Shown piece after piece: positions 14,692 to 48,470 of a DNA stretch of 64,000 nucleotides (position 1 is its first letter; each line of letters begins with the position of its first letter). A program made the position numbers and the translations under genes. The DNA lies in contig JALAAN010000010.1 of NCBI GenBank assembly GCA_023078555.1, positions 806,001-870,000 of the forward strand, in the 5' to 3' direction. Below the pieces are notes generated by a model that was given only the letters and a program-made list of their open reading frames with translations, did no database searches and was not told the origin of the DNA. Source of the stretch: Ulva prolifera (lineage: Eukaryota; Chlorophyta; Ulvophyceae; Ulvales; Ulvaceae).

Positions 14692-17321
14692 CTCAGGGCT
14701 AGGGCTGCTTTAAATGTTGAAATGGCAGCGTGCTCCCATGCCACTCATGCAGAAATCTCGCACCTCACAAAAACAGGTTCCCAACCTCACCATAGGGGCT
14801 GAATCTTTGCACATGATGCTCTCTATGTCAAAGGAATGTGGTGTAGAAGTTTGGAGGCAATCAAGTGATAAGTCAGGGCTAGGGCTGCTATCAATGTTGA
14901 AATGGCAGCGCGCTCTCCCGCCACTCATGCAGAAATCCCGCGCCTCACAAAAACAGGTTCCCAACCTCACGTTAGGGGCTGAATCTATGCACATGATGCT
15001 CTCTTTGTCAAAGGAATGTGGTCTAGAAGTTTGGAGGCAATCAAGTGATAAGTCAGGGCAAGGGTTGCTATCAATGTTGAAAAGGCAGCGCGCTCTCCCG
15101 CCCCTCATGCAGAAATCCCGCGCCTCACAAAAACAGGTTCCCAACCTCACGTTAGGGGCTGAATCTTTGCACATGATACTCTCTATGTCAAAGGAATGTG
15201 GTGTAGAAGTTTGGAGGCAATCAAGTGATAAGTCAGGGCAAGGGCTGCTATCAATGTTGAAAAGGCAGCGCGCTCTCCCGCCCCTCATGCAGAAATCTCG
15301 CCCTCACAAAAACAGGTTCCCAACCTCACGTTAGGGGCTGAATCTTTGCACATGATGCTCTCTATGTCAAAGGAATGTGGTCTAGAAGTTTGGAGGCAAT
15401 CAAGTGACAAGTCAGGGCAAGGGTTGCTATCAATGTTGAAATGGCAGCGCGCTCTCCCGCCCCTCATGCAGAAATCTCGCCCTCACAAAAACAGGTTCCC
15501 AACCTCACGTTCGGGGCTGAATCTTTGCACATGATGCTCTCTATGTCAAAGGAATGTGGTGTAGAAGTTTGGAGGCAATCAAGTGATAAGTCAGGGCAAG
15601 GGTTGCTATCAATGTTGAAAAGGCAGCGCGCTCTCCCGCCCCTCATGCAGAAATCCCGCGCCTCACAAAAACAGGTTCCCAACCTCACGTTTGGGGCTGA
15701 ATCTTTGCACATGATACTCTCTATGTCAAAGGAATGTCATGTAGAAGTTTGGAGGCAATCAAGTGATAAGTCAGGGCTAGGGCTGCTATCAATGTTGAAA
15801 TGGCAGCACGCTCTCCCGCCACTCATGCAGAAATCTCGCCCCCGCAAAAACAGGTTCCCAACCTCACTTTAGGGGCTGAATCTTTGCACATGATGCTATC
15901 TATGTCAAATTAATGTGATGTGATGGTTTGGAGGCAATCAAGTGATAACTCAGGGCTAGGGCTGCTTTAAATGTTGAAATGGCAGCGTGCTCCCATGCCA
16001 CTCATGCAGAAATCTCGCACCTCACAAAAACAGGTTCCCAACCTCACCTTAGGGGCTGAATCTTTGCACATGATGCTCTCTATGTCAAAGGAATGTGGTG
16101 TAGAAGTTTGGAGGCAATCAAGTGATAAGTCAGGGCTAGGGCTGCTATCAATGTTGAAATGGCAGCACGCTCTCCCGCCACTCATGCAGAAATCTCGCCC
16201 TCGCAAAAACAGGTTCCCAACCTCACTTTAGGGGCTGAATCTTTGCACATGATGCTATCTATGTCAAATTAATGTGATGTGATGGTTTGGAGGCAATCAA
16301 GTGATAACTCAGGGCTAGGGCTGCTTTAAATGTTGAAATGGCAGCGTGCTCCCATGCCACTCATGCAGAAATCTCGCACCTCACAAAAACAGGTTCCCAA
16401 CCTCACCTTAGGGGCTGAATCTTTGCACATGATGCTCTCTATGTCAAAGGAATGTGGTGTAGAAGTTTGGAGGCAATCAAGTGATAAGTCAGGGCTAGGG
16501 CTGCTATCAATGTTGAAAAGGCAGCGCGCTCTCCCGCCCCTCATGCAGAAATCCCGCGCCTCACAAAAACAGGTTCCCAACCTCACGTTTGGGGCTGAAT
16601 CTTTGCACATGATACTCTCTATGTCAAAGGAATGTGGTGTAGAAGTTTGGAGGCAATCAAGTGATAAGTCAGGGCAAGGGCTGCTATCAATGTTGAAAAG
16701 GCAGCGCGCTCTCCCGCCCCTCATGCAGAAATCTCGCCCTCACAAAAACAGGTTCCCAACCTCACGTTAGGGGCTGAATCTTTGCACATGATGCTCTCTA
16801 TGTCAAAGGAATGTGGTGTAGAAGTTTGGAGGCAATCAAGTGATAAGTCAGGGCTAGGGCTGCCATCAATGTTGAAATGGCAGCGTGCTCCCATGCCACT
16901 CATGCAGAAATCCCGCGCCTCACAAAAACATGTTCCCAACCTCACGTTAGGGGCTGAATCTTTGCACATGATGCTATCTATGTCAAATTAATGTGATGTG
17001 AGGGTTTGGAGGCAATCAAGTGATAACTCAGGGCTAGGGCTGCTTTAAATGTTGAAATGGCAGCGTGCTCCCATGCCACTCATGCAGAAATCTCGCACCT
17101 CACAAAAACAGGTTCCCAACCTCACCATAGGGGCTGAATCTTTGCACATGATGCTCTCTATGTCAAAGGAATGTGGTGTAGAAGTTTGGAGGCAATCAAG
17201 TGATAAGTCAGGGCTAGGGCTGCTATCAATGTTGAAATGGCAGCGCGCTCTCCCGCCACTCATGCAGAAATCCCGCGCCTCACAAAAACAGGTTCCCAAC
17301 CTCACGTTAGGGGCTGAATCT
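14692..17321 (+). repeat. 13-mer family, fourth copy
   Basis: This matches about 4989-7618 at offset 9703, with D anchors 14650, 15907, 16266 and 16985 mirroring 4947, 6204, 6563 and 7282. The right end is where this copy has GAATCTTTGC (17322) and the partner has GAATCTATGC (7619). The GAATGTCATGTAG marker is present near 15733. Confidence 0.88.
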
Positions 17322-17524
17322 TTGCACATGATGCTCTCTATGTCAAAGGAATGTGGTGTAGAAGTTTGGAGGCAATCAAGTGATAAGTCAGGGCTAGGGC
17401 TGCCATCAATGTTGAAATGGCAGCGTGCTCCCATGCCACTCATGCAGAAATCCCGCGCCTCACAAAAACATGTTCCCAACCTCACGTTAGGGGCTGAATC
17501 TTTGCACATGATGCTCTCTATGTC

Positions 17525-20490
17525 AAATTAATGTGATGTAGAAGGTTTGGAGGCAATCAAGTGATAACTCAGGGCTAGGGCTGCTTATCAATGTTGAAAT
17601 GGCAGCGTGCTCCCATGCCACTCATGCAGAAATCTCGCACCTCACAAAAACAGGTTCCCAACCTCACCATTAGGGGCTGAATCTTTGCACATGATGCTCT
17701 CTATGTCAAAGGAATGTGGTGTAGAAGTTTGGAGGCAATCAAGTGATAAGTCAGGGCTAGGGCTGCTATCAATGTTGAAATGGCAGCGCGCTCTCCCGCC
17801 ACTCATGCAGAAATCCCGCGCCTCACAAAAACAGGTTCCCAACCTCACCGTTAGGGGCTGAATCTTTGCACATGATGCTCTCTATGTCAAAGGAATGTGG
17901 TGTAGAAGTTTGGAGGCAATCAAGTGATAAGTCAGGGCTAGGGCTGCTATCAATGTTGAAATGGCAGCGTGCTCCCATGCCACTCATGCAGAAATCCCGC
18001 GCCTCACAAAAACATTTTCCCAACATCACGTTAGGGGCTGAATCTTTGCACATGATGCTCTCTATGTCAAAGGAATGTGCTCTAGAAGTTTGGAGGCAAT
18101 CAAGTGATAAGTCAGGGCTAGGGCTGCTATCAATGTTGAAATGGCAGCGTGCTCCCATGCCCCTCATGCAGAAATCTCGCCCTCACAAAAACAGGTTCCC
18201 AACCTCACGTTCGGGGCTGAATCTTTGCACATGATGCTCTCTATGTCAAAGGAATGTGGTGTAGAAGTTTGGAGGCAATCAAGTGATAAGTCAGGGCTAG
18301 GGCTGCTATCAATGTTGAAATGGCAGCGCGCTCTCCCGCCACTCATGCAGAAATCCCGCGCCTCACAAAAACAGGTTCCCAACCTCACGTTAGGGGCTGA
18401 ATCTTTGCACATGATGCTCTCTATGTCAAAGGAATGTGGTGTAGAAGTTTGGAGGCAATCAAGTGATAAGTCAGGGCTAGGGCTGCTTTAAATGTTGAAA
18501 TGGCAGCGTGCTCCCATGCCACTCATGCAGAAATCTCGCACCTCACAAAAACAGGTTCCCAACCTCACCTTAGGGGCTGAATCTTTGCACATGATGCTCT
18601 CTATGTCAAAGGAATGTGGTGTAGAAGTTTGGAGGCAATCAAGTGATAAGTCAGGGCTAGGGCTGCTATCAATGTTGAAATGGCAGCGCGCTCTCCCAGC
18701 CACTCATGCAGAAATCCCGCGCCTCACAAAAACAGGTTCCCAACCTCACGTTAGGGGCTGAATCTTTGCACATGATGCTCTCTTTGTCAAAGGAATGTGG
18801 TCTAGAAGTTTGGAGGCAATCAAGTGATAAGTCAGGGCAAGGGTTGCTATCAATGTTGAAAAGGCAGCGCGCTCTCCCGCCCCTCATGCAGAAATCCCGC
18901 GCCTCACAAAAACAGGTTCCCAACCTCACGTTAGGGGCTGAATCTTTGCACATGATGCTCTCTATGTCAAAGGAATGTGGTGTAGAAGTTTGGAGGCAAT
19001 CAAGTGATAAGTCAGGGCTAGGGCTGCTATCAATGTTGAAATGGCAGCGCGCTCTCCCGCCACTCATGCAGAAATCCCGCGCCTCACAAAAACAGGTTCC
19101 CAACCTCACGTTAGGGGCTGAATCTTTGCACATGATGCTCTCTATGTCAAAGGAATGTGGTCTAGAAGTTTGGAGGCAATCAAGTGATAAGTCAGGGCAA
19201 GGGTTGCTATCAATGTTGAAAATGGCAGCGCGCTCTCCCGCCCCTCATGCAGAAATCCCGCGCCTCACAAAAACAGGTTCCCAACCTCACGTTTGGGGCT
19301 GAATCTTTGCACATGATACTCTCTATGTCAAAGGAATGTGGTGTAGAAGTTTGGAGGCAATCAAGTGATAAGTCAGGGCAAGGGCTGCTATCAATGTTGA
19401 AAAGGCAGCGCGCTCTCCCGCCCCTCATGCAGAAATCCCGCGCCTCACAAAAACAGGTTCCCAACCTCACGTTTGGGGCTGAATCTTTGCACATGATACT
19501 CTCTATGTCAAAGGAATGTGGTGTAGAAGTTTGGAGGCAATCAAGTGATAAGTCAGGGCAAGGGCTGCTATCAATGTTGAAATGGCAGCGCGCTCTCCCG
19601 CCACTCATGCAGAAATCCCGCGCCTCACAAAAACAGGTTCCCAACCTCACGTTAGGGGCTGAATCTTTGCACATGATGCTCTCTTTGTCAAAGGAATGTG
19701 GTCTAGAAGTTTGGAGGCAATCAAGTGATAAGTCAGGGCAAGGGTTGCTATCAATGTTGAAAAGGCAGCGCGCTCTCCCGCCCCTCATGCAGAAATCCCG
19801 CGCCTCACAAAAACAGGTTCCCAACCTCACGTTTGGGGCTGAATCTTTGCACATGATACTCTCTATGTCAAAGGAATGTGGTGTAGAAGTTTGGAGGCAA
19901 TCAAGTGATAAGTCAGGGCAAGGGCTGCTATCAATGTTGAAAAGGCAGCGCGCTCTCCCGCCCCTCATGCAGAAATCTCGCCCTCACAAAAACAGGTTCC
20001 CAACCTCACGTTAGGGGCTGAATCTTTGCACATGATGCTCTCTATGTCAAAGGAATGTGGTGTAGAAGTTTGGAGGCAATCAAGTGATAAGTCAGGGCTA
20101 GGGCTGCCATCAATGTTGAAATGGCAGCGTGCTCCCATGCCACTCATGCAGAAATCCCGCGCCTCACAAAAACATGTTCCCAACATCACGTTAGGGGCTG
20201 AATCTTTGCACATGATGCTCTCTATGTCAAAGGAATGTGCTCTAGAAGTTTGGAGGCAATCAAGTGATAAGTCAGGGCTAGGGCTGCTATCAATGTTGAA
20301 ATGGCAGCGTGCTCCCATGCCCCTCATGCAGAAATCTCGCCCTCACAAAAACAGGTTCCCAACCTCACGTTCGGGGCTGAATCTTTGCACATGATGCTCT
20401 CTATGTCAAAGGAATGTGGTGTAGAAGTTTGGAGGCAATCAAGTGATAAGTCAGGGCTAGGGCTGCTATCAATGTTGAAATGGCACGCGC
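17525..20490 (+). other. Irregular zone 1: blended monomers, possible consensus artefact
   Basis: HOR order breaks down and no intact D monomer occurs between 16985 and 21486. Single-base oddities appear that each look like two standard variants overlaid: GTAGAAGGTTTGG (17531-17550), GCTTATCAATG (17583), CACCATTAGG (17665), CACCGTTAGG (17846), CTCTCCCAGCC (18691) and GAAAATGGC (19216). There is also a one-base loss in TGGCACGCGC (20481). Monomers are otherwise normal. Either these are truly degenerate monomers or they are consensus errors from mixing repeat copies. I favour the latter. Confidence 0.6.
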
Positions 20491-32500: not shown

Positions 32501-33156
32501 CAATGTTGAAATGGCAGCGTGCTCCCATGCCCCTCATGCAGAAATCTCGCCCTCACAAAAACAGGTTCCCAACCTCACGTTCGGGGCTGAATCTTTGCAC
32601 ATGATGCTCTCTATGTCAAAGGAATGTGGTGTAGAAGTTTGGAGGCAATCAAGTGATAAGTCAGGGCTAGGGCTGCTATCAATGTTGAAATGGCAGCGCG
32701 CTCTCCCGCCACTCATGCAGAAATCCCGCGCCTCACAAAAACAGGTTCCCAACCTCACGTTAGGGGCTGAATCTTTGCACATGATACTCTCTATGTCAAA
32801 GGAATGTGGTGTAGAAGTTTGGAGGCAATCAAGTGATAAGTCAGGGCAAGGGCTGCTATCAATGTTGAAATGGCAGCGCGCTCTCCCGCCACTCATGCAG
32901 AAATCCCGCGCTTCACAAAAACAGGTTCCCAACCTCACGTTAGGGGCTGAATCTTTGCACATGATACTCTCTATGTCACAGGAATGTGGTCTAGAAGTTT
33001 GGAGGCAGTCAAGTGATAAGTCAGGGCAAGGGCTCCTATCAATGTTGAAATGGCAGCGCGCTCTCCCGCCACTCATGCAGAAATCTCGCCCTCACAAAAA
33101 CAGGTTCCCAACCTCACGTTAGGGGCTGAATCTTTGCACATGATGCTATCTATGTC
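29564..33156 (+). repeat. 11-mer-spaced HOR (1976 bp), two copies
   Basis: D anchors are 29564, 31181, 31540 and 33157. About 29.46-31.2 kb matches 31.44-33.2 kb at offset 1976. Each copy carries the full 9-monomer 1617-bp block, including GGGGTGCCATC (30337 and 32313) and GTGCTCTAGAAG (30473 and 32449). Copy 1 has the private CACGTTTAGGGC at about 30782 where copy 2 has CACGTTAGGGGC. Confidence 0.87.
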
Positions 33157-34560
33157 AAATTAATGTGATGTGAGGGTTTGGAGGCAATCAAGTGATAACT
33201 CAGGGCTAGGGCTGCTTTAAATGTTGAAATGGCAGCGTGCTCCCATGCCCCTCATGCAGAAATCCCGCGCCTCACAAAAACATGTTCCCAACCTCACCTT
33301 AGGGGCTGAATCTTTGCACATGATGCTCTCTATGTCAAAGGAATGTGGTGTAGATGTTTGGAGGCCATCAAGTGATAAGTCAGGGCAAGGGTTGCTATCA
33401 ATGTTGAAAAGGCAGCGCGCTCTCCCGCCCCTCATGCAGAAATCCCGCGCCTCACAAAAACAGGTTCCCAACCTCACGTTAGGGGCTGAATCTTTGCACA
33501 TGATACTCTCTATGTCACAGGAATGTGGTCTAGAAGTTTGGAGGCAATCAAGTGATAAGTCAGGGCAAGGGCTCCTATCAATGTTGAAATGGCAGCGCGC
33601 TCTCCCGCCACTCATGCAGAAATCTCGCCCTCACAAAAACAGGTTCCCAACCTCACGTTAGGGGCTGAATCTTTGCACATGATGCTCTCTATGTCAAAGG
33701 AATGTGGTCTAGAAGTTTGGAGGCAATCAAGTGATAAGTCAGGGCAAGGGTTGCTATCAATGTTGAAATGGCAGCGCGCTCTCCCGCCCCTCATGCAGAA
33801 ATCTCGCCCTCACAAAAACAGGTTCCCAACCTCACGTTCGGGGCTGAATCTTTGCACATTATGCTCTCTATGTCAAAGGAATGTGGTGTAGAAGTTTGGA
33901 GGCAATCAAGTGATAAGTCAGGGCAAGGGTTGCTATCAATGTTGAAAAGGCAGCGCGCTCTCCCGCCCCTCATGCAGAAATCCCGCGCCTCACAAAAACA
34001 GGTTCCCAACCTCACGTTTGGGGCTGAATCTTTGCACATGATACTCTCTATGTCAAAGGAATGTCATGTAGAAGTTTGGAGGCAATCAAGTGATAAGTCA
34101 GGGCTAGGGCTGCTATCAATGTTGAAATGGCAGCACGCTCTCCCGCCACTCATGCAGAAATCTCGCCCTCGCAAAAACAGGTTCCCAACCTCACTTTAGG
34201 GGCTGAATCTTTGCACATGATGCTATCTATGTCAAATTAATGTGATGTGATGGTTTGGAGGCAATCAAGTGATAACTCAGGGCTAGGGCTGCTTTAAATG
34301 TTGAAATGGCAGCGTGCTCCCATGCCACTCATGCAGAATTCTCGCACCTCACCAAAACAGGTTCCCAACCTCACCTTAGGGGCTGAATCTTTGCACATGA
34401 TGCTCTCTATGTCAAAGGAATGTGGTGTAGAAGTTTGGAGGCAATCAAGTGATAAGTCAGGGCTAGGGCTGCTATCAATGTTGAAATGGCAGCACGCTCT
34501 CCCGCCACTCATGCAGAAATCTCGCCCTCGCAAAAACAGGTTCCCAACCTCACGTTAGGG
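33157..34560 (+). repeat. Block shared with 9.38-10.48 kb (offset 24078)
   Basis: About 33460-34550 matches 9382-10472 with only about four differences noticed. Shared rare changes include GAATGTCATGTAG (34059 and 9981), and GAATTCTCG plus CACCAAAAC in one monomer (34335 and 10257). The right end is CACGTTAGG here versus CACTTTAGG there. D anchor 34234 is of the GATGG subtype otherwise confined to the left 17 kb, which supports an origin from that family. CACATTATGC at about 33857 is private to this copy. Confidence 0.88.
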
Positions 34561-35959
34561 GCTGAATCTTTGCACATGATGCTATCTATGTCAAATTAAT
34601 GTGATGTGAGGGTTTGGAGGCAATCAAGTGATAACTCAGGGCTAGGGCTGCTTTAAATGTTGAAATGGCAGCGTGCTCCCAAGCCACTCATGCAGAAATC
34701 TCGCACCTCACAAAAACAGGTTCCCATCCTCACCTTAGGGGCTGAATCTTTGCACATGATGCTCTCTATGTCAAAGGAATGTGGTGTAGAAGTTTGGAGG
34801 CAATCAAGTGATAAGTCAGGGCTAGGGCTGCTATCAATGTTGAAATGGCAGCACGCTCTCCCGCCACTCATGCAGAAATCTCGCCCTCGCAAAAACAGGT
34901 TCCCAACCTCACGTTAGGGGCTGAATCTTTGCACATGATGCTATCTATGTCAAATTAATGTGATGTGAGGGTTTGGAGGCAATCAAGTGATAACTCAGGG
35001 CTAGGGCTGCTTTAAATGTTGAAATGGCAGCGTGCTCCCATGCCACTCATGCAGAAATCTCGCACCTCACAAAAACAGGTTCCCAACCTCACGTTAGGGG
35101 CTGAATCTTTGCACATGATACTCTCTATGTCACAGGAATGTGGTCTAGAAGTTTGGAGGCAATCAAGTGATAAGTCAGGGCAAGGGCTCCTATCAATGTT
35201 GAAATGGCAGCGCGCTCTCCCGCCACTCATGCAGAAATCTCGCCCTCACAAAAACAGGTTCCCAACCTCACGTTAGGGGCTGAATCTTTGCACATGATGC
35301 TCTCTATGTCAAAGGAATGTGGTCTAGAAGTTTGGAGGCAATCAAGTGATAAGTCAGGGCAAGGGTTGCTATCAATGTTGAAATGGCAGCGCGCTCTCCC
35401 GCCCCTCATGCAGAAATCTCGCCCTCACAAAAACAGGTTCCCAACCTCACGTTCGGGGCTGAATCTTTGCACATGATGCTCTCTATGTCAAAGGAATGTG
35501 GTGTAGAAGTTTGGAGGCAATCAAGTGATAAGTCAGGGCAAGGGTTGCTATCAATGTTGAAATGGCAGCACGCTCTCCCGCCACTCATGCAGAAATCTCG
35601 CCCTCGCAAAAACAGGTTCCCAACCTCACGTTAGGGGCTGAATCTTTGCACATGATGCTATCTATGTCAAATTAATGTGATGTGAGGGTTTGGAGGCAAT
35701 CAAGTGATAACTCAGGGCTAGGGCTGCTTTAAATGTTGAAATGGCAGCGTGCTCCCAAGCCACTCATGCAGAAATCTCGCACCTCACAAAAACAGGTTCC
35801 CATCCTCACCTTAGGGGCTGAATCTTTGCACATGATGCTCTCTATGTCAAAGGAATGTGGTGTAGAAGTTTGGAGGCAATCAAGTGATAAGTCAGGGCTA
35901 GGGCTGCTATCAATGTTGAAATGGCAGCACGCTCTCCCGCCACTCATGCAGAAATCTCG
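34561..35959 (+). repeat. Dimers and short HOR pieces with D monomers
   Basis: D anchors are at 34593, 34952 and 35669. One clear dimer unit (359 bp: a D monomer plus a 179-bp CAGCACGCTC/CCTCGC monomer) is followed by a 717-bp interval. The sequence is clean until CCTCAGCAAAAAC at about 35961, where irregular zone 2 begins. Confidence 0.82.
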
Positions 35960-38665
35960 CCCTCAGCAAAAACAGGTTCCCAACCTCACGTTAGGGGCTG
36001 AATCTTTGCACATGATGCTATCTATGTCAAATTAATGTGATGTGAGGGTTTGGAGGCAATCAAGTGATAACTCAGGGCTAGGGCTGCTATCAATGTTGAA
36101 ATGGCAGCGCGCTCTCCCAGCCACTCATGCAGAAATCTCGCGCCTCACAAAAACAGGTTCCCAACCTCACGTTAGGGGCTGAATCTTTGCACATGATGCT
36201 CTCTATGTCAAAGGAATGTGGTGCTAGAAGTTTGGAGGCAATCAAGTGATAAGTCAGGGCAAGGGCTGCTATCAATGTTGAAAATGGCAGCGCGCTCTCC
36301 CGCCACTCATGCAGAAATCTCGCCCTCACAAAAACAGGTTCCCAACCTCACGTTAGGGGCTGAATCTTTGCACATGATGCTCTCTATGTCAAAGGAATGT
36401 GGTGTAGAAGTTTGGAGGCAATCAAGTGATAAGTCAGGGCTAGGGCTGCTATCAATGTTGAAATGGCAGCGTGCTCCCATGCCACTCATGCAGAAATCTC
36501 GCCCTCACAAAAACAGGTTCCCAACCTCACGTTAGGGGCTGAATCTTTGCACATGATGCTCTCTATGTCAAAGGAATGTGGTGTAGAAGTTTGGAGGCAA
36601 TCAAGTGATAAGTCAGGGCTAGGGCTGCTATCAATGTTGAAATGGCAGCGTGCTCTCCATGCCCCTCATGCAGAAATCTCGCCCTCACAAAAACAGGTTC
36701 CCAACCTCACGTTAGGGGCTGAATCTTTGCACATGATGCTCTCTATGTCAAAGGAATGTGGTGTAGAAGTTTGGAGGCAATCAAGTGATAAGTCAGGGCT
36801 AGGGCTGCTATCAATGTTGAAATGGCAGCGCGCTCTCCCGCCACTCATGCAGAAATCCGCGCCTCACAAAAACAGGTTCCCAACCTCACGTTAGGGGCTG
36901 AATCTTTGCACATGATGCTCTCTATGTCAAAGGAATGTGGTCTAGAAGTTTGGAGGCAATCAAGTGATAAGTCAGGGCAAGGGCTGCTATCAATGTTGAA
37001 ATGGCAGCGCGCTCTCCCGCCACTCATGCAGAAATCCGCGCCTCACAAAAACAGGTTCCCAACCTCACGTTAGGGGCTGAATCTTTGCACATGATGCTCT
37101 CTATGTCAAAGGAATGTGGTGTAGAAGTTTGGAGGCAATCAAGTGATAAGTCAGGGCTAGGGCTGCTATCAATGTTGAAATGGCAGCAGCGCTCTCCCGC
37201 CACTCATGCAGAAATCTCGCCCTCACAAAAACAGGTTCCCAACCTCACGTTAGGGGCTGAATCTTTGCACATGATGCTCTCTATGTCAAAGGAATGTGGT
37301 GTAGAAGGTTTGGAGGCAATCAAGTGATAAGTCAGGGCTAGGGCTGCTATCAATGTTGAAATGGCAGCGTGCTCTCCAGCCACTCATGCAGAAATCCGCG
37401 CCTCACAAAAACAGGTTCCCAACCTCACGTTAGGGGCTGAATCTTTGCACATGATGCTCTCTATGTCAAAGGAATGTGGTGTAGAAGTTTGGAGGCAATC
37501 AAGTGATAAGTCAGGGCTAGGGCTGCTATCAATGTTGAAATGGCAGCACGCTCTCCCGCCACTCATGCAGAAATCTCGCCCTCGCAAAAACAGGTTCCCA
37601 ACCTCACGTTAGGGGCTGAATCTTTGCACATGATGCTATCTATGTCAAAGGAATGTGATGTAGAGGGTTTGGAGGCAATCAAGTGATAACTCAGGGCTAG
37701 GGCTGCTATTAAATGTTGAAATGGCAGCGTGCTCCCATGCCACTCATGCAGAAATCTCGCACCTCACAAAAACAGGTTCCCAACCTCACCTTAGGGGCTG
37801 AATCTTTGCACATGATGCTCTCTATGTCAAAGGAATGTGGTGTAGAAGTTTGGAGGCAATCAAGTGATAAGTCAGGGCTAGGGCTGCTATCAATGTTGAA
37901 ATGGCAGCGCGCTCTCCCGCCACTCATGCAGAAATCTCGCCCTCACAAAAACAGGTTCCCAACCTCACGTTAGGGGCTGAATCTTTGCACATGATGCTAT
38001 CTATGTCAAAGGAATGTGGTGTAGAAGTTTGGAGGCAATCAAGTGATAAGTCAGGGCTAGGGCTGCTATCAATGTTGAAATGGCAGCGCTGCTCCCATGC
38101 CACTCATGCAGAAATCTCGCCCTCACAAAAACAGGTTCCCAACCTCACGTTAGGGGCTGAATCTTTGCACATGATGCTCTCTATGTCAAAGGAATGTGGT
38201 GTAGAAGTTTGGAGGCAATCAAGTGATAAGTCAGGGCTAGGGCTGCTATCAATGTTGAAATGGCAGCGCGCTCTCCCAGCCACTCATGCAGAAATCTCGC
38301 CCTCACAAAAACAGGTTCCCAACCTCACGTTAGGGGCTGAATCTTTGCACATGATGCTCTCTATGTCAAAGGAATGTGGTGTAGAAGTTTGGAGGCAATC
38401 AAGTGATAAGTCAGGGCTAGGGCTGCTATCAATGTTGAAATGGCAGCGCGCTCTCCCGCCACTCATGCAGAAATCTCGCCCTCACAAAAACAGGTTCCCA
38501 ACCTCACGTTAGGGGCTGAATCTTTGCACATGATGCTCTCTATGTCAAAGGAATGTGGTCTAGAAGTTTGGAGGCAATCAAGTGATAAGTCAGGGCTAGG
38601 GCTGCTATCAATGTTGAAATGGCAGCAGCGCTCTCCCGCCACTCATGCAGAAATCTCGCCCTCAC

Positions 38666-38844
38666 AAAAACAGGTTCCCAACCTCACGTTAGGGGCTGAA
38701 TCTTTGCACATGATGCTCTCTATGTCAAAGGAATGTGGTGTAGAAGTTTGGAGGCAATCAAGTGATAAGTCAGGGCTAGGGCTGCTATCAATGTTGAAAT
38801 GGCAGCGCGCTCTCCCGCCACTCATGCAGAAATCTCGCCCTCAC
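38666..38844 (+). repeat. Reference monomer, 179-bp length class
   Basis: This copy shows the short form, phased to start at AAAAACAGG. It has 88 G+C in 179 bp (49%) and five CpG sites. Order along the monomer: AAAAACAGGTTCCCAACC, CACGTTAGGGG, CTGAATCTTTGCACATGATG, CTCTCTATGTCAAAGGAATG, TGGTGTAGAAG, TTTGGAGGCAATCAAGTGAT, AAGTCAGGGCTAGGGCTGC, TATCAATGTTGAAATGGCAG, CGCGCTCTCCCGCCACTC, ATGCAGAAATCTCGCCCTCAC. The missing base lies at the end (GCCCTCAC instead of GCGCCTCAC). This copy lies in the zone of consensus-like monomers but carries none of the blended indels itself. Confidence 0.95.
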
Positions 38845-41527
38845 AAAAACAGGTTCCCAACCTCACGTTAGGGGCTGAATCTTTGCACATGATGCTCTCT
38901 ATGTCAAAGGAATGTGGTCTAGAAGTTTGGAGGCAATCAAGTGATAAGTCAGGGCTAGGGCTGCTATCAATGTTGAAATGGCAGCGCGCTCTCCAGCCAC
39001 TCATGCAGAAATCTCGCCCTCACAAAAACAGGTTCCCAACCTCACGTTAGGGGCTGAATCTTTGCACATGATGCTCTCTATGTCAAAGGAATGTGGTGTA
39101 GAAGTTTGGAGGCAATCAAGTGATAAGTCAGGGCTAGGGCTGCTATCAATGTTGAAATGGCAGCACGCTCTCCCGCCACTCATGCAGAAATCTCGCCCTC
39201 ACAAAAACAGGTTCCCAACCTCACGTTAGGGGCTGAATCTTTGCACATGATGCTCTCTATGTCAAAGGAATGTGGTGTAGAAGTTTGGAGGCAATCAAGT
39301 GATAAGTCAGGGCTAGGGCTGCTATCAATGTTGAAATGGCAGCGTGCTCCCATGCCACTCATGCAGAAATCCCGCGCCTCACAAAAACAGGTTCCCAACC
39401 TCACGTTAGGGGCTGAATCTTTGCACATGATGCTCTCTATGTCAAAGGAATGTGGTCTAGAAGTTTGGAGGCAATCAAGTGATAAGTCAGGGCTAGGGCT
39501 GCTATCAATGTTGAAATGGCAGCGTGCTCCCATGCCCCTCATGCAGAAATCTCGCCCTCACAAAAACAGGTTCCCAACCTCACGTTCGGGGCTGAATCTT
39601 TGCACATGATGCTCTCTATGTCAAAGGAATGTGGTGTAGAAGTTTGGAGGCAATCAAGTGATAAGTCAGGGCTAGGGCTGCTATCAATGTTGAAATGGCA
39701 GCGTGCTCCCATGCCACTCATGCAGAAATCCCGCGCCTCACAAAAACAGGTTCCCAACCTCACGTTAGGGGCTGAATCTTTGCACATGATGCTCTCTATG
39801 TCAAAGGAATGTGGTGTAGAAGTTTGGAGGCAATCAAGTGATAAGTCAGGGCAAGGGTTGCTATCAATGTTGAAAATGGCAGCGCGCTCTCCCGCCCCTC
39901 ATGCAGAAATCCCGCGCCTCACAAAAACAGGTTCCCAACCTCACGTTAGGGGCTGAATCTTTGCACATGATACTCTCTATGTCAAAGGAATGTGGTCTAG
40001 AAGTTTGGAGGCAATCAAGTGATAAGTCAGGGCAAGGGCTGCTATCAATGTTGAAATGGCAGCGCGCTCTCCCGCCACTCATGCAGAAATCTCGCCCTCA
40101 CAAAAACAGGTTCCCAACCTCACGTTAGGGGCTGAATCTTTGCACATGATGCTCTCTATGTCAAAGGAATGTGATGTAGAGGTTTGGAGGCAATCAAGTG
40201 ATAAGTCAGGGCTAGGGCTGCTTAAATGTTGAAATGGCAGCGTGCTCCCATGCCACTCATGCAGAAATCTCGCACCTCACAAAAACAGGTTCCCAACCTC
40301 ACCGTTAGGGGCTGAATCTTTGCACATGATGCTCTCTATGTCAAAGGAATGTGGTGTAGAAGTTTGGAGGCAATCAAGTGATAAGTCAGGGCTAGGGCTG
40401 CTATCAATGTTGAAATGGCAGCAGCGCTCTCCCGCCACTCATGCAGAAATCTCGCCCTCAGCAAAAACAGGTTCCCAACCTCACGTTAGGGGCTGAATCT
40501 TTGCACATGATGCTATCTATGTCAAATTAATGTGATGTAGAGGTTTGGAGGCAATCAAGTGATAACTCAGGGCTAGGGCTGCTTATAAATGTTGAAATGG
40601 CAGCGTGCTCCCAGCCACTCATGCAGAAATCTCGCACCTCACAAAAACAGGTTCCCATCCTCACCTTAGGGGCTGAATCTTTGCACATGATGCTCTCTAT
40701 GTCAAAGGAATGTGGTGTAGAAGTTTGGAGGCAATCAAGTGATAAGTCAGGGCTAGGGCTGCTATCAATGTTGAAATGGCAGCACGCTCTCCCGCCACTC
40801 ATGCAGAAATCTCGCCCTCGCAAAAACAGGTTCCCAACCTCACGTTAGGGGCTGAATCTTTGCACATGATGCTATCTATGTCAAATTAATGTGATGTGAG
40901 GGTTTGGAGGCAATCAAGTGATAACTCAGGGCTAGGGCTGCTTTAAATGTTGAAATGGCAGCGTGCTCCCATGCCACTCATGCAGAAATCTCGCACCTCA
41001 CAAAAACAGGTTCCCAATCCTCACCTTAGGGGCTGAATCTTTGCACATGATGCTCTCTATGTCAAAGGAATGTGGTCTAGAAGTTTGGAGGCAATCAAGT
41101 GATAAGTCAGGGCTAGGGCTGCTATCAATGTTGAAATGGCAGCGTGCTCCCATGCCCCTCATGCAGAAATCCCGCGCCTCACAAAAACATGTTCCCAACC
41201 TCACGTTAGGGGCTGAATCTTTGCACATGATGCTCTCTATGTCAAAGGAATGTGGTGTAGAAGTTTGGAGGCAATCAAGTGATAAGTCAGGGCAAGGGTT
41301 GCTATCAATGTTGAAAATGGCAGCGCGCTCTCCCGCCCCTCATGCAGAAATCCCGCGCCTCACAAAAACAGGTTCCCAACCTCACGTTAGGGGCTGAATC
41401 TTTGCACATGATACTCTCTATGTCACAGGAATGTGGTCTAGAAGTTTGGAGGCAATCAAGTGATAAGTCAGGGCAAGGGCTCCTATCAATGTTGAAATGG
41501 CAGCGCGCTCTCCCGCCACTCATGCAG

Positions 41528-42012
41528 AAATCTCGCCTCACAAAAACAGGTTCCCAACCTCACGTTAGGGGCTGAATCTTTGCACATGATGCTCTCTATG
41601 TCAAAGTAATGTGGTCTAGAAGTTTGGAGGCAATCAGTGACAAGTCAGGGCAAGGGTTGCTATCAATGTTGAAATGGCAGCACGCTCTCCCGCCACTCAT
41701 GCAGAATCTCGCCTCCTCGCAAAAACAGGTTCCCAACCTCACGTTAGGGGCTGAATCTTTGCACATGATGCTATCTTGTCAAATTAATGTGATGTGAGGG
41801 TTTGGAGGCAATCAAGTGATAACTCAGGGCTAGGGCGCTTTTAAATGTTGAAATGGCAGCGTGCTCCCATGCCACTCATGCAGAAATCTCGCACCTCACA
41901 AAACAGGTTCCCATCCTCACCTTAGGGGCTGAATCTTTGCACATGATGCTCTCTATGTTCAAAGGAATGTGGTGTAGAAGTTTTGGAGGCAATCAAGTAT
42001 AAGTCAGCTAGG
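41528..42012 (+). other. Dense single-base indel cluster
   Basis: About ten one-base changes fall in under 500 bp: TCTCGCCTCAC (41531), CAAAGTAATG (41603), GGCAATCAGTGAC (41628), GCAGAATCTCGCCTCCTCGC (41701), CTATCTTGTC (41771), AGGGCGCTTTTAAATG (41832), CACAAAACAGG (41898), TATGTTCAAAGG (41954), AAGTTTTGGAGG (41978), and CAAGTATAAG with CAGCTAGGG (41994-42014). Elsewhere indels are almost absent. Many sit in short homopolymers or are dropped bases, the pattern of unpolished single-read sequence. Confidence 0.7.
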
Positions 42013-42520
42013 GCTGCTATCAATGTTGAAATGGCAGCGCGCTCTCCCGCCACTCATGCAGAAATCCCGCCCTCACAAAAACAGGTTCCCAACCTCACGT
42101 TAGGGGCTGAATCTTTGCACATGATGCTCTCTATGTCAAAGGAATGTGGTGTAGAAGGTTTGGAGGCAATCAAGTGATAAGTCAGGGCTAGGGCTGCTAT
42201 CAATGTTGAAATGGCAGCGCGCTCTCCAGCCACTCATGCAGAAATCTCGCCCTCACAAAAACAGGTTCCCAACCTCACCTTAGGGGCTGAATCTTTGCAC
42301 ATGATGCTCTCTATGTCAAAGGAATGTGGTGTAGAAGTTTGGAGGCAATCAAGTGATAAGTCAGGGCTAGGGCTGCTATCAATGTTGAAATGGCAGCGCG
42401 CTCTCCCGCCACTCATGCAGAAATCTCGCCCTCACAAAAACAGGTTCCCAACCTCACGTTAGGGGCTGAATCTTTGCACATGATGCTCTCTATGTCAAAG
42501 GAATGTGGTGTAGAAGGTTT

Positions 42521-46669: not shown

Positions 46670-47069
46670 AAGTCAGGGCAAGGGTTGCTATCAATTTTGA
46701 AAAGGCAGCGCGCTCTCCCGCCCCTCATGCAGAAATCCCGCGCCTCACAAAAACAGGTTCCCAACCTCACGTTAGGGGCTGAATCTTTGCACATGATACT
46801 CTCTATGTCACAGGAATGTGGTCTAGAAGTTTGGAGGCAATCAAGTGATAAGTCAGGGCAAGGGCTCCTATCAATGTTGAAATGGCAGCGCGCTCTCCCG
46901 CCACTCATGTAGAAATCTCGCCCTCACAAAAACAGGTTCCCAACCTCACGTTAGGGGCTGAATCTTTGCACATGATGCTCTCTATGTCAAAGGAATGTGG
47001 TCTAGAAGTTTGGAGGCAATCAAGTGACAAGTCAGGGCAAGGGTTGCTATCAATGTTGAAATGGCAGCG
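46670..47069 (+). repeat. Standard monomers between HOR blocks
   Basis: This contains CAATTTTGAAAAGG (about 46694), an ATACTC/CACAGG monomer, and CTCATGTAGAAATC at about 46906, where CATGCAG has become CATGTAG, a private transition. Confidence 0.78.
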
Positions 47070-48470
47070 CGCTCTCCCGCCACTCATGCAGAAATCTCGC
47101 CCTCGCAAAAACAGGTTCCCAACCTCACGTTAGGGGCTGAATCTTTGCACATGATGCTATCTATGTCAAATTAATGTGATGTGAGGGTTTGGAGGCAATC
47201 AAGTGATAACTCAGGGCTAGGGCTGCTTTAAATGTTGAAATGGCAGCGTGCTCCCATGCCACTCATGCAGAAATCTCGCACCTCACAAAAACAGGTTCCC
47301 ATCCTCACCTTAGGGGCTGAATCTTTGCACATGATGCTCTCTATGTCAAAGGAATGTGGTGTAGAAGTTTGGAGGCAATCAAGTGATAAGTCAGGGCTAG
47401 GGCTGCTATCAATGTTGAAATGGCAGCACGCTCTCCCGCCACTCATGCAGAAATCTCGCCCTCGCAAAAACAGGTTCCCAACCTCACGTTAGGGGCTGAA
47501 TCTTTGCACATGATGCTATCTATGTTAAATTAATGTGATGTGAGGGTTTGGAGGCAATCAAGTGATAACTCAGGGCTAGGGCTGCTTTAAATGTTGAAAT
47601 GGCAGCGTGCTCCCAAGCCACTCATGCAGAAATCTCGCACCTCACAAAAACAGGTTCCCATCCTCACCTTAGGGGCTGAATCTTTGCACATGATGCTCTC
47701 TATGTCAAAGGAATGTGGTGTAGAAGTTTGGAGGCAATCAAGTGATAAGTCAGGGCTAGGGCTGCTATCAATGTTGAAATGGCAGCACGCTCTCCCGCCA
47801 CTCATGCAGAAATCTCGCCCTCGCAAAAACAGGTTCCCAACCTCACGTTAGGGGCTGAATCTTTGCACATGATGCTATCTATGTCAAATTAATGTGATGT
47901 GAGGGTTTGGAGGCAATCAAGTGATAACTCAGGGCTAGGGCTGCTTTAAATGTTGAAATGGCAGCGTGCTCCCATGCCACTCATGCAGAAATCTCGCACC
48001 TCACAAAAACAGGTTCCCAACCTCACCTTAGGGGCTGAATCTTTGCACATGATGCTCTCTATGTCAAAGGAATGTGGTGTAGAAGTTTGGAGGCAATCAA
48101 GTGATAAATCAGGGCTAGGGCTGCTATCAATGTTGAAATGGCAGCGCGCTCTCCCGCCACTCATGCAGAAATCCCGCGCCTCACAAAAACAGGTTCCCAA
48201 CCTCACGTTAGGGGCTGAATCTTTGCACATGATGCTCTCTTTGTCAAAGGAATGTGGTCTAGAAGTTTGGAGGCAATCAAGTGATAAGTCAGGGCAAGGG
48301 TTGCTATCAATGTTGAAAAGGCAGCGCGCTCTCCCGCCCCTCATGCAGAAATCCCGCGCCTCACAAAAACAGGTTCCCAACCTCACGTTTGGGGCTGAAT
48401 CTTTGCACATGATACTCTCTATGTCAAAGGAATGTGGTGTAGAAGTTTGGAGGCAATCAAGTGATAAGTC
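47070..48470 (+). repeat. Dimer pair plus 8-mer, copy of 58.75-60.15 kb
   Basis: About 47070-48566 matches 58752-60248 at offset 11682. D anchors 47168, 47527 and 47886 give two tandem 359-bp dimers. TATGTTAAATTAATG at about 47521 is a private change in the second D copy. GATAAATCAGGG near 48105 is shared with about 43970, 51524, 55656, 59785 and 62840. Confidence 0.86.

Follow-up and report, generated by a model that had tools for sequence, protein, structure and literature searches.

Does a stretch of unusual monomers within a satellite array of Ulva prolifera represent a real branch of the satellite family, or is it a product of the way the array was assembled? The sequence in question belongs to a 64,000-nucleotide stretch (here called the window) spanning positions 806,001 to 870,000 of contig C10, which is 1,957,755 bp long and part of an 88.9-Mb, 44-contig assembly. 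According to Tandem Repeats Finder, the window lies entirely within a single array with a unit of ~180 bp. Between window positions 35,965 and 42,520 is a zone of blended satellite monomers, mostly unique and near average in sequence, carrying insertions that unite two alleles common elsewhere in the array. A preliminary description had read these monomers as the consensus of mixed repeat copies, with a degenerate subfamily as the competing view. The first reading was supported by unions of alleles, by dropped bases, by substitutions that are not raised, by near-average monomers, and by confinement to discrete patches, and the zone is very probably an assembly or polishing artifact in which the consensus mixes several repeat copies or haplotypes.

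Protein matches in the assembly, RuBisCO small subunit at two places and a single weak homeodomain match, point to a green-lineage eukaryote, perhaps an alga, and comparing a chaperonin narrowed this no further. The satellite is abundant, with 3,520 exact genome copies of a 26-base piece of the unit in a whole-genome search; among the matches listed, the earliest on C10 starts at base 291. The sequence examined comprised C10:606,001 to 920,000 (314 kb) and C10:454,001 to 464,000, and both stretches consist of this satellite up to ~895 kb, a few gaps excepted. Together with the copy at base 291, this means that the array may extend over ~0.9 Mb, part of which was read here. The 314 kb contain 1,573 monomers, 451 of them distinct, and the longest exact repeats in the array reach 7.5 kb. 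Outside the zone, the array has a normal satellite structure plus local duplication. Satellite arrays with higher-order repeats occur at many centromeres, and at the level of sequence this array is like them in its head-to-tail monomers of ~180 bp and its exact duplicated blocks, although the zone itself has no such repeat order. A text search of the literature for a 15-base monomer piece gave no match, and literature searches identified no matching algal or ~180-bp centromere satellite.

The extent and the internal disorder of the zone agree with what had been described. The first union lies at 35,965 and the last anomalous insertion at 42,516, fitting the proposed edges. Of 38 monomers tiled over positions 35,815 to 42,463, only 5 are matched by an identical monomer beyond the zone, whereas 290 of the 318 monomers in the rest of the window have an exact match in the 281 kb used for comparison; the claim that higher-order repeat order is absent was therefore borne out. 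Lengths of 178, 181, or 182 bp occur in 11 of the 38. Variation is also flattened, as had been claimed: zone monomers are on average 5.76 edits away from a majority consensus built on monomers that lie outside the patches described below, versus 7.90 elsewhere, and no 38-monomer block outside the zone is as close to that consensus. Using another reference monomer, the values are 6.37 and 8.01 edits, and three outside blocks are equally low, all starting in or beside other patches. A blended monomer of 181 bp is found at both 39,769 and 41,210, and a near-average monomer has four copies, all of them inside the zone.

All seven blended motifs quoted in the preliminary description were located within positions 35,960 to 42,520. 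Among them, CCTCAGCAAA occurs twice, GAAAATGGC and CAGCAGCGCTC occur three times each, and GGTGCTAGAAG, CCCAATCCTC, CACCGTTAGG, and GCTATTAAATG occur once each; in the window outside the zone, only GAAAATGGC (19,218) and CACCGTTAGG (17,846) were found. Six of the seven contain both of their named alternatives as subsequences, the exception being GCTATTAAATG, which lacks GCTATCAATG. The statement that at least a dozen different motifs are present was generous, as the zone has 12 union insertions of only 7 kinds. It also has 14 plain insertions and 5 insertion-or-substitution events.

On the forward strand, the unions are AG of CCTC[A/G]CAAA (35,965 to 35,966 and again 40,460 to 40,461; surrounding 20-mer, 5 genome copies), GC of GGT[G/C]TAG (36,223 to 36,224; 22-mer, 6 copies), AT of GAAA[A/T]GGC (36,284 to 36,285 and again 39,876 and 41,317; 20-mer, 10 copies), AG of CAGC[A/G]CGCTC (37,188 to 37,189 and again 38,627 and 40,423; 19-mer, 3 copies, all in the zone), CT of CAGCG[C/T]GCT (38,089 to 38,090), CG of CAC[C/G]TTAGG (40,303 to 40,304; 20-mer, 8 copies), and AT of CCCA[A/T]CCTC (41,017 to 41,018). 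The CT union was called by the broader of two methods and falls under other insertions by the stricter rule. All whole-genome matches to the five blend strings of 19 to 22 bases (3, 10, 8, 6, and 5 copies) are on C10, many of them clustered, for example, at 414 to 416, 444 to 447, 458 to 462, 792 to 794, 824 to 825, and 842 to 847 kb.

Under a simple definition, a union is a pair of adjacent bases, X and Y, from which either can be dropped to give a string with five or more occurrences in the 314 kb; 48 such unions of 24 kinds were counted in 289 kb. The broader second method returned 54 union events, with 50 falling inside nine patches outlined post hoc over the same 289 kb from monomer lengths and uniqueness, and 4 falling outside. 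For a null expectation, 6,000 random single-base insertions produced 704 unions and 4,521 plain insertions (13.5% unions), 614 ambiguous cases, and a remainder in other classes. Against this 13.5%, the zone had 12 unions among its 26 insertions (p = 5e-5), the other 14 being non-union calls, and the nine patches had 50 among 89 (p = 3e-21). Treating the ambiguous class as non-unions gave 12 of 31 (zone, p = 1.4e-4) and 50 of 104 (patches, p = 2e-19) against 12.1%; all of these p values assume independent events, though some strings recur. Union counts per patch were 4, 2, 8, 6, 8, 6, 3, 12, and 1.

The distribution of unions among monomers and the order of their bases carry further information. 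By the simple definition, 29 of the 1,573 monomers have one union, 9 have two, and none have more. At four sites both base orders, XY and YX, were seen in different places, which is consistent with separate events. In 16 of 18 union types that could be ordered, a base lies beside its own homopolymer, compared to 65% of random insertions (p = 0.025), a weak indication, because the random proportion is already that high.

If copies with different bases were merged, a disputed base should also be lost at some sites. The zone includes a noisy patch, for which such counts are given separately. This patch (41,536 to 42,015, forward strand) closely resembles 46.9 to 47.4 kb, which lies 30 monomers further on, and its ~480 bp contain 14 ordinary indel bases; the alignment of 41,391 to 42,103 with 46,776 to 47,492 contains 6 mismatches and 9 plus 5 gap bases, with the gaps between 41,536 and ~42,015. 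From its letters, the patch looks like raw, thinly covered, or poorly corrected long-read sequence, and a comparable one is present at C10 454.3 to 454.7 kb.

A deletion was counted as an intersection when the base it removes lies at a site with at least two alleles, each seen five times or more. Intersections account for 22 of the 43 deletions called in the patches versus 23.7% of random deletions (p = 9e-5), and for 3 of the 14 called outside the patches. Within the zone, they are 4 of 5 deletions outside the noisy patch and 1 of 6 inside it. Three of the four zone intersections outside the noisy patch are one string with a rare second allele, AAATC^CGCGCC at 36,858 to 36,859 and again at 37,037 and 37,397 (forward strand), where the minor alleles T and G were seen 10 and 5 times and C 594 times. 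A similar dropped base, CCCA^GCC at 40,614 on the forward strand, is an intersection-type deletion. These four sites (36,858, 37,037, 37,397, and 40,614) were counted twice, as plain insertions in one test and as dropped bases in the other.

Substitutions did not follow the indels. Private substitution-type variants occur at 0.89 per kb in patches versus 1.11 per kb outside, or at 1.52 versus 1.42 per kb when all ambiguous classes are added. Union insertions rise from 0.016 per kb outside patches to 1.44 inside, plain insertions from 0.012 to 1.12, and deletions from 0.028 to 0.57, and the mixed classes are also higher in patches (insertion-or-substitution, 0.43 versus 0.26 per kb; substitution-or-deletion, 0.20 versus 0.05 per kb). 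The size of this indel excess is partly there by construction, because patch borders were set post hoc; neither the share of unions nor the rate of substitution is circular in this way.

Other stretches of C10 have the same character. A second, smaller patch is present in the window at 17,300 to 20,000, with unions at 17,669, 17,849, and 19,222 and unique monomers of odd length (181 and 183 bp). The stretch at C10:454,001 to 464,000 was picked because three blend strings lie there. Of its 29 insertions, 17 are unions, and after removal of the three selecting sites the proportion is still 14 of 26 versus 13.5% (p = 1e-6). It has 9 substitution-type variants in 10 kb, close to background, where the k-mer background was the other 314 kb, so that variants local to this stretch score as rare in all classes. 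One of the nine patches, past the end of the window at C10:880.4 to 884.5 kb (window coordinates 74,400 to 78,500), consists of disordered, unique 181- and 183-bp monomers; only one of its six insertions is a union, which is not above chance, and this patch may be of another kind.

Unions, intersections, clustering, a normal substitution rate, and flattening together favor a mixed consensus over a degenerate subfamily. To produce such a pattern, reads from at least two nonidentical satellite copies, either from different array positions or from two homologues, would have been stacked on one place. The consensus step would then have treated a base that differs between copies as two indels, with each column decided alone, so that a disputed site could end with both bases kept (a union), both lost (an intersection), or one common allele chosen. 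The last outcome, at the remaining disputed sites, would draw monomers toward the array average. The ~480 bp near the right edge would represent ordinary uncorrected long-read error. We infer both the mixing of reads and the column-by-column consensus; the signature itself was computed here.

Modeling each zone monomer as a superposition of two outside monomers gave a cost of 0 in 33 of 39 and a cost of 1 in 3 of 39, and the remaining 3 lie in the noisy patch. When consecutive registers were required, the mean cost per 4 monomers was 1.94 in the real order versus 2.33 and 2.31 in shuffled orders, and that per 6 monomers was 3.53 versus 4.97 and 4.21, a slight advantage, and the model is too flexible for this to count as proof. 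Naming a pair of source copies from the register fit was abandoned, as the shuffled order fits nearly as well.

A real subfamily that gained its indels while escaping homogenization now appears improbable. Decay of this kind should add private substitutions, and in the patches indels are raised and substitutions are not; in addition, about half of the classified indels fall at sites where copies differ, far above chance. The recurrence of blends, including the repeated 181-bp monomer and the near-average monomer found four times in the zone only, is what a subfamily would produce, as are strings common to several patches and the flanking of the zone by blocks of partly different monomers. Yet such a family predicts ordered, amplified blocks, and 32 of 38 monomers of at least 181 bp are unique in the 314 kb. 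Zone monomers are also nearer the array majority than any block of equal length outside the zone, and the confinement of nearly all union events to patches, along with the unraised private substitutions, likewise speaks against this competing view. A derivation in the opposite direction, with the blend as a longer ancestral form from which each common allele arose by loss of one base, is formally satisfied by six of the seven examples, where each common allele equals the blend minus one base. It would predict many unions per monomer, while the maximum is two among 1,573, and the two base orders at four sites are impossible from a single ancestor, making this origin barely credible. The tandem repeat adjoining the array has no blastn similarity to the satellite and contains neither blends nor alleles, and it is uninformative on ancestry. 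Equally hard to credit is that the blends are real and keep the alternative bases of two parental variants through some unusual recombination or repair in which mismatched strands are joined instead of one being chosen.

A tentative possibility, itself a special case of mixed-copy consensus, is that only two homologous chromosomes were merged and that the order of the array is right. The blended monomer at 35,815 recurs near −13.9 kb with neighbors there as in an unblended block, a context that looks as if a single monomer differed between haplotypes. Against this, 38 monomers that lack repeat order and are mostly unique suggest more than allelic base differences, and collapsed heterozygosity is not distinguishable here from mixing of copies inside the array.

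Behavior of this general type is known from assembly and polishing software. In the available text on HiCanu (PMC7545148), long-read assemblies are described as giving a mosaic consensus where haplotypes are collapsed or repeats are nearly identical; as in the zone, similar copies are averaged, and the result may match no single copy. That text names mixing and mosaicism and does not mention a letter-level signature of unions and intersections. In the portion of the NextPolish2 report available, polishing yields k-mers absent from the short reads of the sample, and overcorrection is attributed in part to satellite arrays (PMC12016036). The k-mers there are measured overall, and that portion mentions neither discrete patches nor the union signature. 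No description of a union signature was found in the available text of the literature on mixed-copy consensus.

The genome itself very probably lacks this feature, and the interest of the zone is methodological. The 181- to 182-bp "variants" and the "disordered zone" of this array are not to be taken as biology. A search for unions and intersections of common alleles where the substitution rate is normal needs no reads, and as a test it could point to mixed consensus in other satellite arrays that have been assembled.

Several observations concern the surroundings of the zone and the array as a whole. An exact duplicate of 3,201 bp (32,764 to 35,964) ends one base before the first blend, and its other copy lies 52,106 bp upstream (C10:786.7 to 789.9 kb). 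Both copies have blended patches a few kilobases downstream, and among the 60 longest repeats in the matches listed, this one is the most widely spaced. It is possibly a false join; that the repeat ends at the zone is not proof, because any corrupted stretch interrupts exact repeats, and what is unusual about it is only its 52-kb distance. Around C10:630.6 to 634.5 kb and 653.7 to 656.2 kb, the monomer series has gaps of 1.0, 2.7, and 2.5 kb, perhaps reflecting other DNA inserted into the array. C10 has the satellite already at its first bases (base 291), and the end of the contig is thus either a break in the array or a chromosome end. Within C10:887 to 920 kb, 174-bp monomers recur at the right end of the array, and beyond ~895 kb is DNA without a blastn match to the satellite, part of which repeats in tandem at intervals of ~179 bp.
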